Positions 2 to 47,205 of a DNA stretch of 64,000 bases are shown here, piece after piece. The position numbers were made by a program, and so were the translations under genes. Source of the DNA: Desulfurellaceae bacterium bin18 (GTDB taxonomy: Bacteria > Desulfobacterota > Binatia > Bin18); contig MPMI01000028.1 in assembly GCA_002238415.1 (NCBI GenBank), forward strand, positions 1 through 64,000. The letters run 5' to 3'. How positions within the stretch are numbered: position 1 is the stretch's first letter; the number at the start of each line of letters is the position of its first letter. A model generated the notes under the pieces. It had not been told where the DNA came from and did no database searches. It saw only the letters and a list, made by a program, of their open reading frames with translations.

Positions 2-1648
2 CCCATCTGGGCCATCAAGTTTCTGTATGACATCGGGAACGTCGGAACGTTTCTGTCCAACGTGGGTCTGGAGTTATTCTACACCCCGCGCTGGCGGCCC
101 ATCACCCAACACTTGGTGTTGGAAGGTGGCTGGGGTGGCCTGCGCTATGACGACCCGAGCTTCGTTGGCGATCCGACTGATTACTTTGATTCGCCGACCT
201 CACCTGGCACCTTGACCACCAAGGGTGTGCCCTGGGGGCCATACCATGACTACTCCCGAATTCGCCATCCATGGTCGTTGTTTCGGGTCGGGCGCAACCA
301 GGCGAGAATGGCGGGAGATTCCGGGTGCAGTGGTACAGGACCGTGCACGGACGACGCCGCGGGCCGGGGTGCAAACTTCCTGTACCGGATTGGTGGTGGA
401 TCGAAAACCCACCACATTCGGGGCACGAAATGGGACAACAGCATGGTCGGCGTGCGGTTGATGGGGAAGGTCTTCGACAATTTCGACTTCACCCTGAACT
501 ATATGTTCAAGCGTACCGATCCGGGCGGCGTCTTCCATTTCGACACCTTCTTTGCCGATTCACCGCTTGATGCGGATGGCAAACGGACGGTGGGCTTGGA
601 CGGCCGACCACAATCGGCCGGATACGCAGGGGGAGTACCCACGGAAGGTAGATTTGCGGGCAGATATGTCGCTCCTGGGACCTTTATCCACGACCCGTCG
701 GACCCGAACAACTCGCTCAACTTCCGCCGCGCCCTGGACCGGTGCTTCGAAGACAACATCGCGACCAACTTCGTCGGGGTCGACATGTACGGCTACAGTC
801 AGGATAGCAACCCGAACAACGACCGAACTGGAACCGCCTGTTTCGATGTGTCCCACTGGATGCCGTGGACGAACGTGTTCGGGTTTACGCTTACGTATAA
901 CGACTTCGACTACACCGGCGCAGTGTTCCGCCTGGAGCAGAGTTGGTCGACCAATGAGCCGCGCAACATCGCGCCGGTCGCGAACGGCGGCCGGGACCAG
1001 GAGCACTACGATGCGCGCGTAGCCGCGGCGCAAGCCAACGCTATTGCACAGGGCAGGACGGGCTCGCAGATTCCGACCCATCCCTTTACGGACGGCGACG
1101 GCAACCCATGCGCCGAAGGGCACGGCAGCTTCTGTCCCAGCCCACGCCAGCGCATTGCGCGCATTAAGACCGGCAGCTCGATCTGGCGGAGCATGATCGG
1201 GTTTGACCTGATTCAGTCCATTCAGTCCTTTCCGGGCATGGGCTGGGCGCGCGGCCTGCCGGGCGGTATTGGCGACCAGACCACCTTCTACACCTTCCAG
1301 GCTCTGACCACCTACCAGAACGATAACCGCGCAACGGGCCTGAGCGCCTTCACCAACGCGCCGCGCGACCGGCACAGTCGGTTCAATCAGTTGTACACCT
1401 TTGGAATGTCGGGCTTTTATTTCCGGGGCAAGCTGGAGCCGCTGTTTGCGTTCGCCTACTCGGTGAATGCCAAGCAGCCGTTGTTGCTGGCCCAGACCTA
1501 CTGGCACGGCCTCTATTTCCGCAACCTCGACCTCTTTGCCGGCACGGTCATGTATATGGGCAGCACCAACGACGTCGATGCTACGGGGCTGCACCTGTGG
1601 GCGGAGCGCGATCTGTTCTGGATTCGTCTCCAGTACTACCTGCTGTAG
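2..1648 (+). CDS. DUF1302-like outer-membrane protein, 5'-truncated
   Basis: The reading frame is open from the left edge, so the true start lies outside the window; the GTG at 62 is an internal codon. The part seen is about 548 residues. It is rich in aromatic residues, Asn, Asp and Gly and has many alternating hydrophobic stretches such as FDFTLNYMFK and GFTLTYNDFDYTGA. It ends in an aromatic-rich tail (RLQYYLL), all of which fits an outer-membrane beta-barrel. The segment near the edge (GNVGTFLSNVGLELFYTP) resembles the DUF1302 family of porin-like proteins found beside hydrophobic-compound and steroid catabolism genes. The substrate cannot be read. A strong intrinsic terminator follows, so it ends a transcription unit. 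Confidence 0.7.
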   Translation, partial: PIWAIKFLYDIGNVGTFLSNVGLELFYTPRWRPITQHLVLEGGWGGLRYDDPSFVGDPTDYFDSPTSPGTLTTKGVPWGPYHDYSRIRHPWSLFRVGRNQARMAGDSGCSGTGPCTDDAAGRGANFLYRIGGGSKTHHIRGTKWDNSMVGVRLMGKVFDNFDFTLNYMFKRTDPGGVFHFDTFFADSPLDADGKRTVGLDGRPQSAGYAGGVPTEGRFAGRYVAPGTFIHDPSDPNNSLNFRRALDRCFEDNIATNFVGVDMYGYSQDSNPNNDRTGTACFDVSHWMPWTNVFGFTLTYNDFDYTGAVFRLEQSWSTNEPRNIAPVANGGRDQEHYDARVAAAQANAIAQGRTGSQIPTHPFTDGDGNPCAEGHGSFCPSPRQRIARIKTGSSIWRSMIGFDLIQSIQSFPGMGWARGLPGGIGDQTTFYTFQALTTYQNDNRATGLSAFTNAPRDRHSRFNQLYTFGMSGFYFRGKLEPLFAFAYSVNAKQPLLLAQTYWHGLYFRNLDLFAGTVMYMGSTNDVDATGLHLWAERDLFWIRLQYYLL

Positions 1649-1693
1649 TCACAACCGGAGAGGTGCAACGCCTCTCCTACAAATTCGATCTCG

Positions 1694-1730
1694 AAAAGGG
1701 AGGTTCCTCAACAGGACCTCCCTTTTTTCT
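1694..1730 (+). terminator. Rho-independent terminator after the DUF1302-like gene
   Basis: AAAAGGGAGGT at 1694-1704 pairs with ACCTCCCTTTT at 1716-1726, followed by a run of T. It lies 46 bases after the stop codon of the upstream gene. Confidence 0.9.
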
Positions 1731-1799
1731 TTGCGTGAAATATGGGAAGATGCCGCCTGCTTGAGTAGGGTCAGGACGAATTAAAGGAGGAGTATAGAT

Positions 1800-3488
1800 A
1801 TGGCGACAGTTGATGGCGGGACGCTTATTGGACGGATATTAAAGGAACAGGACGTGAAGTATATGTTTGCCGTAAATGGCGGACATACCTTCCCCATTCT
1901 GGCCACCCTCAGAGATAATGGCATCAAACTCATTCACATGCGCCACGAGCAAGCCACCGCCTATGCCGCGGATGGCTACGCCCGTGTGACCGGCAAACCC
2001 GGCATCTGCTGTGTCACTGCCGGTTGTGGCCTGACCAACGCGGTGACGGGCCTGTGTGGCGCCGGTCTGACCAATAGTGCGGTCGTCTGCCTCGCGGGCC
2101 AGCACCCTACCACTGAGGACTTTATCGGCTCTTTCCAGGAAGCCTACGGGTCTGATGTGGTGAGTTCGTTCTCGAAATTTGCCAAGCGCGTACTCGACTG
2201 GTCAACCATTGAAATCGACCTGCGTCAGGCATTTCGTGAGGCCACCTCAGCCCCTCAGGGTGTCTCCCTGCTCGAAATTCCAACCAATATTCTCTACCAC
2301 CAGGAGGACGAAGCCAAGCAGCGCAAGGGCGCAAAAGTCTATGGTCCGGATGAACTCCGCTTCCAGGGCGACCCACGCCAGATCGAACGCGCGGTTGAGC
2401 TCATCTTTCAGGCGAAAAAGCCGCTCATTGCCGGTGGAGACGGGATTTTCTGGTCCGGAGCCGAGGCCGAACTGAAAGAACTGGCCGAACTCACCAGTAC
2501 CCCGGTATACTGCCGCCGGGCCGGCCAGGGTGCGGTTGACGAAGACCATGCGCTCGCCGTGCGTGGCGCGTGGAAAAAGCCGTTTACGGGCGAAGCCGAC
2601 GTAGTGCTGGCGATTGGATTCAAATTCTGGAGTGGAGAAAAATTCGGACAACCTCCAACCTGGAGCGATAAAGCCACCTATATTCAGGTCGATGCCACCG
2701 CCCAGCGGGTTGGCTGGCACGTCCCCGCCGAAGTCGGCATTGTCGGCGACCCCAAGCTGGTGCTGCGGCAAATGATCGACACGGCCAAGGCGATGCAGCT
2801 TGACTTTAGCGCCAAGCGGGAGAGTCCCTGGCTCCAGAACATGGTCGAGGTACGCGAGAACTATAATAAGCTCATCAGCGACCGTGAGCAGCAGCATCAC
2901 GGTTCCACCCCTATCCACCCCGACCGGCTGGCCAAGGACCTCACCTCTGTTATCGATAAGGATGCAACTCTCATCGTCGACAGCTTCACGCTGAGTGGTT
3001 ACACGAGTCAGTGGTTTACCGCCCATGAGCCGGGTCAGATTGTCGACGCCGGGCCACTGGCCCCAGTCGGACACGGCGTGGGCATGGGTATTGGTGTGCA
3101 GCTCGGGCGTCCGGGCAAACAAGTCATCGTTGTCAGCGGGGACGGGGGTCTGGGCATCGGCGGCATGGATATGGAGACCGCCGCCAAATACAACATCCCG
3201 ATTATTACCCTGCTGTGGAACAATAGCTCGTGGGGGCCGACGTTTGAGTCCATGCCCCTGCTCAAAGGCCGCACCGACCCGTTCGATATGGTTAAGGACA
3301 TTCGTTATGACAAGGTGTTTGAACCCATGGGGGTCTACACCGAGCATGTGGAGCAGCCGGATGAGATTATTCCGGCTCTGGAGCGTGCCCTCTCCTCCGG
3401 TAAGACCTCGCTGATTAACGTGTTCGGCGATAAGAGCGTCGGGCACCCATCGCTCGGCGGAAACTTGTTGGGCTCAACTCAGGTCTGA
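1800..3488 (+). CDS. thiamine diphosphate-dependent enzyme, acetolactate synthase/pyruvate oxidase type
   Basis: This 562-residue protein has the three-domain layout of the ThDP decarboxylase/acetolactate synthase superfamily. The N-terminal pyrimidine-binding domain carries the activating Glu in MRHEQATAYAADGYAR. A central domain follows, and the C-terminal diphosphate-binding domain has the GDG...NN metal/ThDP motif (VSGDGGLGIGG, then LLWNNSSWG). ATG at 1800 is preceded by AAAGGAGG at 1783-1790, an excellent ribosome binding site. The gene stands alone between two intrinsic terminators. No small regulatory subunit (ilvN) or other branched-chain gene is adjacent, so a catabolic role is as likely as isoleucine/valine synthesis. 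Oxalyl-CoA or 2-hydroxyacyl-CoA lyases belong to the same superfamily, and the substrate is not assigned. Confidence 0.85.
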   Translation: MATVDGGTLIGRILKEQDVKYMFAVNGGHTFPILATLRDNGIKLIHMRHEQATAYAADGYARVTGKPGICCVTAGCGLTNAVTGLCGAGLTNSAVVCLAGQHPTTEDFIGSFQEAYGSDVVSSFSKFAKRVLDWSTIEIDLRQAFREATSAPQGVSLLEIPTNILYHQEDEAKQRKGAKVYGPDELRFQGDPRQIERAVELIFQAKKPLIAGGDGIFWSGAEAELKELAELTSTPVYCRRAGQGAVDEDHALAVRGAWKKPFTGEADVVLAIGFKFWSGEKFGQPPTWSDKATYIQVDATAQRVGWHVPAEVGIVGDPKLVLRQMIDTAKAMQLDFSAKRESPWLQNMVEVRENYNKLISDREQQHHGSTPIHPDRLAKDLTSVIDKDATLIVDSFTLSGYTSQWFTAHEPGQIVDAGPLAPVGHGVGMGIGVQLGRPGKQVIVVSGDGGLGIGGMDMETAAKYNIPIITLLWNNSSWGPTFESMPLLKGRTDPFDMVKDIRYDKVFEPMGVYTEHVEQPDEIIPALERALSSGKTSLINVFGDKSVGHPSLGGNLLGSTQV

Positions 3489-3580: not shown

Positions 3581-3835
3581 CTACCCGCCCTCTTTGCGCA
3601 TCACGATTTCGATTTCATCAAGCGGAGAAACCCCTCGATTGCGAATATGACAGTTCCAGCCGGCAAACTGGCGTAAGTACGTAAACACTTCCCGGACCAG
3701 ACCTGGTTTTACTTCTCTTTCCCATTCGTTCAGCCATTCGTCTCCCTCAAAATCTTCATCGTCCCAGGCCTCGGAAGGAATGTCCGCGCTCAGGGAGAAG
3801 CGTAGATTGAACGTATGCTCGTCCTTTTCTGCCAT
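3581..3835 (-). CDS. small acidic protein of unknown function, coupled to the DsbA-like gene
   Basis: This 84-residue protein is not recognised. It is acidic in the middle (PSEAWDDEDFEGDEW) with a mixed C-terminal half containing one Cys (AGWNCHIRNRG). There is no signal peptide or membrane segment, so it is probably cytosolic. ATG at 3835 lies 9 bases after the TAA stop of the upstream DsbA/FrnE-like gene. The sequence AAAGG just before it can serve as its ribosome binding site. This tight spacing implies co-transcription and probably translational coupling. Its role may therefore be tied to that redox protein, but this is only context. Confidence 0.65.
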   Translation of the reverse strand: MAEKDEHTFNLRFSLSADIPSEAWDDEDFEGDEWLNEWEREVKPGLVREVFTYLRQFAGWNCHIRNRGVSPLDEIEIVMRKEGG

Positions 3836-3844
3836 ACAGCGCCT

Positions 3845-4465
3845 TTATGAGACGTCCAGCGCCGCCAGGTCTTCCAGATAGGTTGCGGCCGGTACCATGC
3901 CGATTTGGCGCCGTTTCCCGCCAATCAGGACGGTCGGCACCGCACTCACGAAATACGTATTCATCGCGTCTTCACATTGCTGACGCACCTGGTCCTGGAG
4001 GGTGGTATCTGCGATATCGTTCAGAAAGGCGTTCATATCCAGGCCTGCCTGCCGGGCAACCTCCACGCAGGTCTCTTTTTCAATCAGACTCTTGTTCTCG
4101 ATAAAAAAGGCTCGGAAGAGTCCTGAGTGAAAGCGGAGGAAGGCGTCTTCGCCCTGACGCTGGGCGGCCGTACCGGCTTCCAGGCCGGGCATGCTCCAGC
4201 CCGGAAATTCGGCATGCGGCCACATGGAATATTCCAGACCGTCCGGTTCGGCCAGGGCTGACGCCTTACGCCAGGCCTGCTCCACATAGCTGTCCTTAAA
4301 CTGAAACGGAGTGGCCGCATAGTGCGGACGGAGGGCAAAGGGATGCCATTTGACACTGACTCGATCACCAAAGCGTTCCTTGATCTTGCGAAGCCGCTCC
4401 GCGGCCGGGAAACACCACGGTCACAGATAGTCCGAGAACTCGATAATCTCAACTGGTGTATCCAT
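3845..4465 (-). CDS. DsbA/FrnE-family thioredoxin-fold protein with probable selenocysteine (U-P-W-C)
   Basis: Read from ATG at 4465, the frame runs 14 codons (MDTPVEIIEFSDYL), meets TGA at 4423-4421, then continues PWCFPAAERLRKIKERFGD and on without interruption to TAA, 206 codons in all. The TGA is exactly at the first Cys of the C-P-W-C site of DsbA/FrnE-type proteins. The cis-proline loop (SAVPTVLIGG, Pro177) and a normal family length are present. A purine-rich AGGGGGG lies about 8 bases upstream of the ATG. UGA is a stop elsewhere in this window (pyrD, mtaB), so general recoding is excluded. With a SECIS-like hairpin 20 nt downstream, the simplest reading is Sec15. There is no signal peptide, so it is probably a cytosolic oxidoreductase or isomerase-like enzyme. 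A point mutation from TGC/TGT to TGA is the main alternative. Starting at the later Met (4285) would discard the active site. Confidence 0.78.
4393..4423 (-). promoter_or_regulatory. candidate bacterial SECIS element with its UGA (Sec) codon
   Basis: The UGA is complement(4421..4423). Twenty nucleotides downstream on the coding strand, GCCGC (4405-4401), loop GGA (4400-4398) and GCGGC (4397-4393) form a perfect 5-bp hairpin, extendable by one G-U pair. Bacterial SECIS elements lie inside the coding region just after the UGA, with a short stem and a G at the start of the apical loop; this fits. A second possible pairing is CCGTGG directly after the UGA with CCGCGG. SelB binding itself cannot be judged from sequence alone. 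Confidence 0.6.
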
Positions 4466-4612
4466 ACGGTTACCCCCCTGTTGTACTGCCCCAGTTCTAT
4501 CCGAAACAGGCTGCGCCGGCCAGAGGTCAGTCCAATTCCCTTGCATTTTCCCCAAAACAGCAGTACCACCATAAAAACACCAGACACCGCATCACAGTAA
4601 GGAGAACGAGCC

Positions 4613-46118: not shown

Positions 46119-47205
46119 CCCAGAACGGAACTGGGGAGGCGGAGAGGTCCAAGTGCTGGGTCTGACCCGCTACCTCCACCGAGTTGGCCATGTCTCCCAC
46201 GTTGCAACTCCGCTGCACGGCGTCCTAGCCCAGCGCCTCCAGCACGACCACCTCGCCGTTCAGCCTCTCTCGGTCCGTAATCATCTTGATGGCCTGGCGG
46301 GTTGGCGGCTGCGCCGTCTGGTCTGTAGAGAACACTACGACCTGGTGCATTTTCATACGGCCAGAGCCCATACCCTCAGCCCTTGGCTCCACGCCCTGCC
46401 AGTTTGCCGCCTAGTCACGCGTCGGATGGATTATCCGATCAAGACGGGCTGGTGGAGTCGGCTTCTGTATGGCAGCCAAGTTGACATGATCATCGCGATC
46501 TCCTCAAGCGTGGCGACCGTACTGGGAACCGCGCATGTTTCCGATAGGGCTATCCGTATCATCCCGAGCGGGATTGACACCAAGCAGTTTCGGCCAACTG
46601 CCGCCCAACGCAGGGCTATTCGACGCCAATACGGACTCGGCGAGGATACTACGGTTATTCTCACGGCCGGTGCGCTGACGCAGCGGAAGTCGCCTCACAC
46701 ACTGATCGAAGCAGCCGCCCAACTCCACTCCAGCCGTCAGCAAGGAGTGCCATCCCTACATTACCTCGTCTGTGGAGATGGACCACTCCGACAGGAATTA
46801 GAAGCCCGTGTGCGTGCGCTTGGCCTAGCTTCCGTGTTTCACTTTGCTGGATTCTGTCGAGACGTGCCCGCGTATCTAGCTGCCGCAGACATCTTTGTCC
46901 ATACTCCTGTCCGGGAAGGTTTGGGCGTCGCCGTTATTGAAGCGCTGGCGGCGGGTCTCCCTGTGGTGGCAAGTCAGGTTGGTGGTATTCCTGAGCTCAT
47001 AACCGATAGAGAAACTGGTCTCCTGATACCAGCCCAGGATCCCTCAGCCTTACGTAACGCTCTCCTCCAGTACACGCACCGTCCAGACTGGGCGAAGACT
47101 TTAGGCATCCAGGGACAAGCCAAAGTCCGGACGTCTTTTGATATCGAGACAACGGCGCGCGCCAATGAAGCCCTCTATTACGAACTCCTGGCTCCAGCAC
47201 CGTGA
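46087..47205 (+). CDS. glycosyltransferase family 4 protein
   Basis: A 372-residue GT-B enzyme. The N-terminal half has ILHVDPERNWGGGEVQVLG with the Gly-rich acceptor loop. The C-terminal half holds VILTAGALTQRKSPHTLI, VCGDGPLRQELEAR, FAGFCRDVPAYLAAADIFV, and the donor-phosphate E-x7-E motif in REGLGVAVIEALAAGLPVV. The sugar is unknown, likely hexose for LPS core extension. ATG at 46087 lies inside the end of the kinase-GT2 fusion gene. Confidence 0.9.
   Translation: MTRRLRILHVDPERNWGGGEVQVLGLTRYLHRVGHVSHVATPLHGVLAQRLQHDHLAVQPLSVRNHLDGLAGWRLRRLVCREHYDLVHFHTARAHTLSPWLHALPVCRLVTRRMDYPIKTGWWSRLLYGSQVDMIIAISSSVATVLGTAHVSDRAIRIIPSGIDTKQFRPTAAQRRAIRRQYGLGEDTTVILTAGALTQRKSPHTLIEAAAQLHSSRQQGVPSLHYLVCGDGPLRQELEARVRALGLASVFHFAGFCRDVPAYLAAADIFVHTPVREGLGVAVIEALAAGLPVVASQVGGIPELITDRETGLLIPAQDPSALRNALLQYTHRPDWAKTLGIQGQAKVRTSFDIETTARANEALYYELLAPAP

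Follow-up and report, generated by a model that had tools for sequence, protein, structure and literature searches.

A predicted cytosolic DsbA-fold selenoprotein with a U-P-W-C active site from the Binatota

The 64,000-nucleotide stretch of DNA analysed here (the window) contains a gene that almost certainly encodes a cytosolic thiol-disulphide oxidoreductase of the DsbA fold (FrnE/COG2761 type), in which the UGA at codon 15 would be read as selenocysteine (Sec). The frame begins with an ATG at 4465 and has a single in-frame TGA, codon 15, followed by 191 sense codons and a TAA. An earlier, sequence-only reading had placed this TGA, at 4421-4423, on the first Cys of a C-P-W-C motif, with an intact frame for 14 codons ahead of it and 191 beyond; these coordinates are exact, and both the frame (by translation) and the assignment to the catalytic Cys column were confirmed. 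The purine-rich site that had been ascribed to the ATG is also present, and the orthologues in genomes G009 and G010 have a clear GGAGGT ribosome-binding site at the same place. The features of the gene are:

3845-4465, minus strand: coding sequence of the predicted selenoprotein with a DSBA domain, 206 residues plus TAA stop (translation, Pfam PF01323).
4421-4423, minus strand: UGA codon 15, predicted Sec at the first position of U-P-W-C (codons of orthologues and relatives at this column).
4412-4414, minus strand: codon of Cys18, the putative resolving Cys of UPWC (C18 column invariant in both alignments).
4392-4406, minus strand: putative bacterial SECIS hairpin with a GGCCGC/GCGGCU stem and a GGA loop (folds, covariation, UGA versus Cys comparison).
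4473-4479, minus strand: purine-rich ribosome-binding site AGGGGGG, 5' of the ATG (sequence, and the GGAGGT of the two orthologues).
3935-3937, minus strand: Pro177, the cis-Pro of the thioredoxin fold, in VPT (P177 invariant in both alignments).
3974-3976, minus strand: Cys164, the third Cys (kept in the 12 orthologues only, by alignment).

The gene order of SDR, inositol-phosphatase family gene, UPWC gene and TPP-dependent enzyme is common across genera up to the contig ends, and gives no pathway. Immediately 3' of the selenoprotein gene lies an 84-residue ORF (3581-3835, minus strand) without any Pfam match, which is kept adjacent within the genus at 90-99% identity.

The genome from which the window derives encodes all of the genes expected for bacterial Sec insertion. 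A tRNA-Sec scores 70.7 bits in a tRNA-Sec model search and is called SeC by ARAGORN; the neighbouring gene, on the opposite strand, is selA (570.6 bits to TIGR00474), and SelB and SelD were found at 382 and 310 bits, respectively. Thus selA, selB, selC (tRNA-Sec) and selD, for which a search had been suggested, are all in the same genome. SelD (L056, 262-2529, plus strand) is a 755-residue Ndh-SelD fusion, a type already described (PMC2398784): its N-terminal part resembles an NADH dehydrogenase, and the active site of the SelD part reads CGGC. SelB exceeds its cut-off in all but one of the genomes with an orthologue of the UPWC gene (11/12); the exception, G009, is 84% complete and has a tRNA-Sec. 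In a sample of the phylum, tRNA-Sec is present in 23/29 genomes with a UGA form and in 12/16 with a Cys form, and so fails to separate the two because the trait is common across the phylum. Of the 43 long ORFs of the window, 16 end normally at a TGA, and there is therefore no genome-wide reassignment. Three other candidates for TGA readthrough in the window (at 47203, 52841 and 12618) were set aside, as by sequence they resemble neighbouring ORFs in the same frame or chance frames and have no redox motif.

In bacterial SECIS elements the apical loop lies about 16-37 nt past the UGA and has a G among its first bases. The sequence-only reading had described a hairpin with a GGA loop starting 20 nt past the TGA. 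The hairpin is there (GGCCGC-GGA-GCGGCU, stem 4406-4401/4397-4392), but what starts some 20 nt past the TGA is its loop (4400-4398, +21 to +23) rather than its stem, and the GGA thus falls within the range of bacterial SECIS loops. On its own, the hairpin of the window's gene is no better than chance: its 101-nt fold has a z of -0.01 against dinucleotide shuffles, and the near-identical gene L011 gives p 0.22 against synonymous shuffles. The case for a SECIS element therefore rests on comparison. Folds of the region +10 to +36 have a mean z against synonymous shuffles of -2.06 in 21 non-redundant UGA genes, compared to -0.08 in 78 Cys genes (MWU p 2.8e-8, a value that is too small owing to the relatedness of the sequences, as kinship inflates these shuffle statistics). 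When 20 UGA genes are aligned without gaps, the covariation score of an 8-bp helix is 0.486, against a shuffled mean of 0.187 with 0/500 shuffles as high, and sliding the helix by 1-3 columns reduces the score to at most 0.273. The UGA homologues thus repeatedly show a hairpin whose loop falls about 20-24 nt past the UGA and which has compensatory changes; as a group, the Cys homologues lack this trait. The window's own clade has a variant with a 3-nt loop in a register slightly off that of most UGA homologues. The SECIS check that had been proposed earlier came out positive by the folds and the covariation across the group, and is non-significant for the single sequence. An Rfam scan of 3800-4600 found no relevant RNA family, its one match being a weak, sub-threshold Trp_leader on the opposite strand.

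These results bear on the possibility that the UGA is recoded not to Sec but to Cys or some other residue, by a suppressor tRNA or by loose readthrough. Cys is indeed a functional alternative at this site. We nevertheless regard such recoding as highly improbable, given the complete set of tRNA-Sec, SelA, SelB and SelD, the covariation of the SECIS-like hairpin among UGA homologues and the use of TGA as a stop elsewhere in the window; moreover, the tRNA-Sec model search, with ARAGORN run on its eight loci, found no other tRNA with a UCA anticodon. The earlier proposal of Sec at redox position 15 is supported by the machinery and the covarying hairpin, together with the TGA column described below, and insertion of Sec at codon 15 is what they would predict.

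With the TGA read through, residues 7-200 match Pfam PF01323 (DSBA) with an E-value of 9.7e-23 (81.4 bits, cut-off 25.6), and phmmer against the PDB sequence of Deinococcus radiodurans FrnE gives an E-value of 2.8e-8, placing the TGA opposite the leading Cys of CPWC. An AlphaFold2 model calculated from 40 sequences has a mean pLDDT of 94.5. The best Foldseek matches of this model are the D. radiodurans FrnE structures, with 5cp1 at the top (6.9e-11); VIA-align superimposes the model on FrnE with Z 22.1-22.5 over about 200 residues, and also matches other cytosolic DsbA-like proteins and kappa GST. The earlier assignment to the DsbA/FrnE family is thus borne out by Pfam, PDB sequence and predicted fold, except that the C-terminal CxxxxC regenerating motif of D. 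radiodurans FrnE is missing from the 206 residues. No NCBIfam model is passed by the selenoprotein. Invariant in our alignments are D12, C/U15, P16, C18 and the cis-Pro P177, so that both hallmarks of DsbA, a CPxC-type motif (U15, P16, C18) and the cis-Pro, are present. Cys164 is common to the 12 orthologues; the other relatives in the same alignment all lack it. There is no signal sequence, and strand 1 has already begun at residue 5; for these reasons, the protein is predicted to be cytosolic.

The sequence-only reading had warned that standard gene calling would begin at 4285 and lose the active site, and this is what the mechanical call does (GTG 4285, 146 residues). Taken at face value, the call would make the UGA a genuine stop and the product a 146-residue protein without a redox motif. 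It is very unlikely that this is the real gene: every orthologue shows strong conservation of residues 1-60, the part with strand 1 and the active site, and a ribosome-binding site precedes the ATG, most clearly in the two orthologues with GGAGGT.

Our orthologue set comprises 12 genomes of the order in 4 genera, the window's own genome included, at 67-97% identity; the nearest named records for the gene are Candidatus Binatia/Binatota MAGs with 96-97% identity, and most of the genomes compared are MAGs. Codon 15 is TGA in all 12 orthologues, and none has a further stop; in the remaining four genomes of the order, the sole homologue is a more distant Cys form (CPFC). Between the window gene and those of the other genera, fourfold-degenerate sites are 39-57% identical, and codons 1-14 show 4-8 synonymous and 1-3 nonsynonymous changes; the codons on either side of the TGA remain under purifying selection. 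We also read the codon at this column in all DsbA-type matches from the phylum and from named genomes. It is TGA in 41 rows and TGC or TGT in 91, some of the rows being duplicates or second paralogues, and Ser occurs only in separate SPWT paralogues; UGA forms are under-sampled in these numbers, because the search patterns for named genomes demanded Cys codons in one motif. Among some 130 CPxC-type relatives at greater distance, no codon but TGA, TGC or TGT occupies the column. Alignment to FrnE/DsbA homologues, as had been suggested, therefore places Cys at the TGA column. On this comparison, the TGA at codon 15 is retained far beyond chance, since it is kept in 12/12 orthologues despite the low fourfold identity and coincides precisely with the column of the catalytic Cys. 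A stop codon that was random or dead would be unlikely to occur solely where Cys is the alternative. Although a single substitution would turn TGC or TGT into TGA and most relatives have Cys at this position, the idea of a point mutation in a recently dead or misread gene has a negligible probability and is, on sequence grounds, already refuted by conservation: the same TGA is present across 4 genera in independent assemblies (two of them the single-contig genomes G005 and G006), which exclude the sequencing error at 4421-4423 that the earlier reading had named as its refutation, and selection acts on the codons at both sides.

We return to the preferred reading, a Sec-containing oxidoreductase. 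The fold, the invariant residues and the absent signal sequence argue for a cytosolic enzyme with Sec15 as the nucleophile and Cys18 as the resolving residue, and its likely function is cytosolic thiol-disulphide exchange with Sec15 as the attacking residue. During translation, the hairpin with its loop about 21 nt downstream would direct SelB and Sec-tRNA(Sec) to the UGA. We can only infer the direction of the redox reaction: the Sec15 selenolate might attack a substrate disulphide, or oxidised Sec15 might itself be attacked. The mixed selenenyl-sulphide arising from either step would then be resolved by Cys18, and the resulting Sec15-Cys18 selenenylsulphide would be returned to the starting state by a cellular reductant.

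A tree of 118 relatives contains at least 10 changes between Sec and Cys, at least 5 of which are forced by well-supported (starred) branches. The 12 Binatota orthologues form one all-Sec branch in this tree (SH-aLRT 96). It is conceivable, but doubtful, that the clade represents a distinct, always-Sec branch of FrnE in which a redox-active Cys164 replaces the missing C-terminal CxxxxC in regeneration of the enzyme. Our literature search found no paper linking Binatota with selenoproteins; with this gene the phylum gains a well-supported one. It also flags genes that are bound to be shortened or overlooked in annotation, and a family that switches between Sec and Cys at a single column is a fair test case for the advantage of Sec in DsbA-fold enzymes.

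Several related loci were observed along the way. Contig C45 of the same genome contains a second likely selenoprotein gene (L046, 2410-3516, minus strand), which combines a SurA/PpiC-like N-terminal part with a DsbA/Thioredoxin_4 domain and a U-P-Y-C motif. It has a perfect GAGUGCA-GUC-UGCACUC hairpin 3' of the UGA, and its TGA is retained throughout the genus (7/7 genomes) and by several other genomes. The adjoining gene (766-2205, minus strand) encodes a VKOR-DsbA fusion with CPQC, likely to be the disulphide-forming partner of the UPYC protein. A UGA homologue is present on contig C37 of the 100% complete genome G213 (L068), in which neither tRNA-Sec nor SelB was found above cut-off; binning contamination, missing sequence and a stranded selenoprotein gene are alternative explanations. 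Two further DsbA-like frames (L069 and L073) have U-P-Y-A, with TGA at the column and no second Cys, possibly a Sec-only variant without a resolving Cys.

DsbA-like selenoproteins of the UxxC kind have been known since 2005, when they were described from the Sargasso Sea as COG2761 members (PMC1088965), and the Binatota gene adds another member. They were reported again in the GOS data (PMC2398784) and in Asgard archaea (PMC11227280), and a 2026 review tabulates them as 'DsbA-like protein form 1, PF01323, UxxC', with NIP15863.1 as the entry (PMC13188914). Our gene shares with this form the domain, Sec as the first residue of UxxC, a SECIS just past the UGA and widespread Cys homologues; it differs in belonging to a Binatota clade with at most 42% identity to the other UGA forms found, NIP15863.1 being compared by description only. 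The Rcas_1661 family of thioredoxin-like (seleno)lipoproteins (NF041057) is also thioredoxin-like with Sec forms, and the selenoprotein is not a member (38 bits, cut-off 190). 2-Hydroxychromene-2-carboxylate isomerase and kappa-class GST have the same DsbA-like fold as the selenoprotein model, but unlike it they have Ser at the active site and are not disulphide-exchange enzymes; a paralogue on contig C36 of the same genome is a Ser form (SPWT) of this kind. The closest structural relative is D. radiodurans FrnE (DR_0659; 5cnw, 5cp1), a proposed cytoplasmic disulphide reductase (PMC8945050), which has a like fold (Z 22.5, r.m.s. deviation 2.5 over 201 residues), a CPWC that aligns to UPWC and, as here, no signal sequence. 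Our protein has 206 residues and about 24% identity to FrnE, from which it differs by a predicted Sec in the position of the first Cys and by the absence of the C-terminal CxxxxC; the FrnE of S. roseofulvus likewise lacks this motif (PMC8945050).
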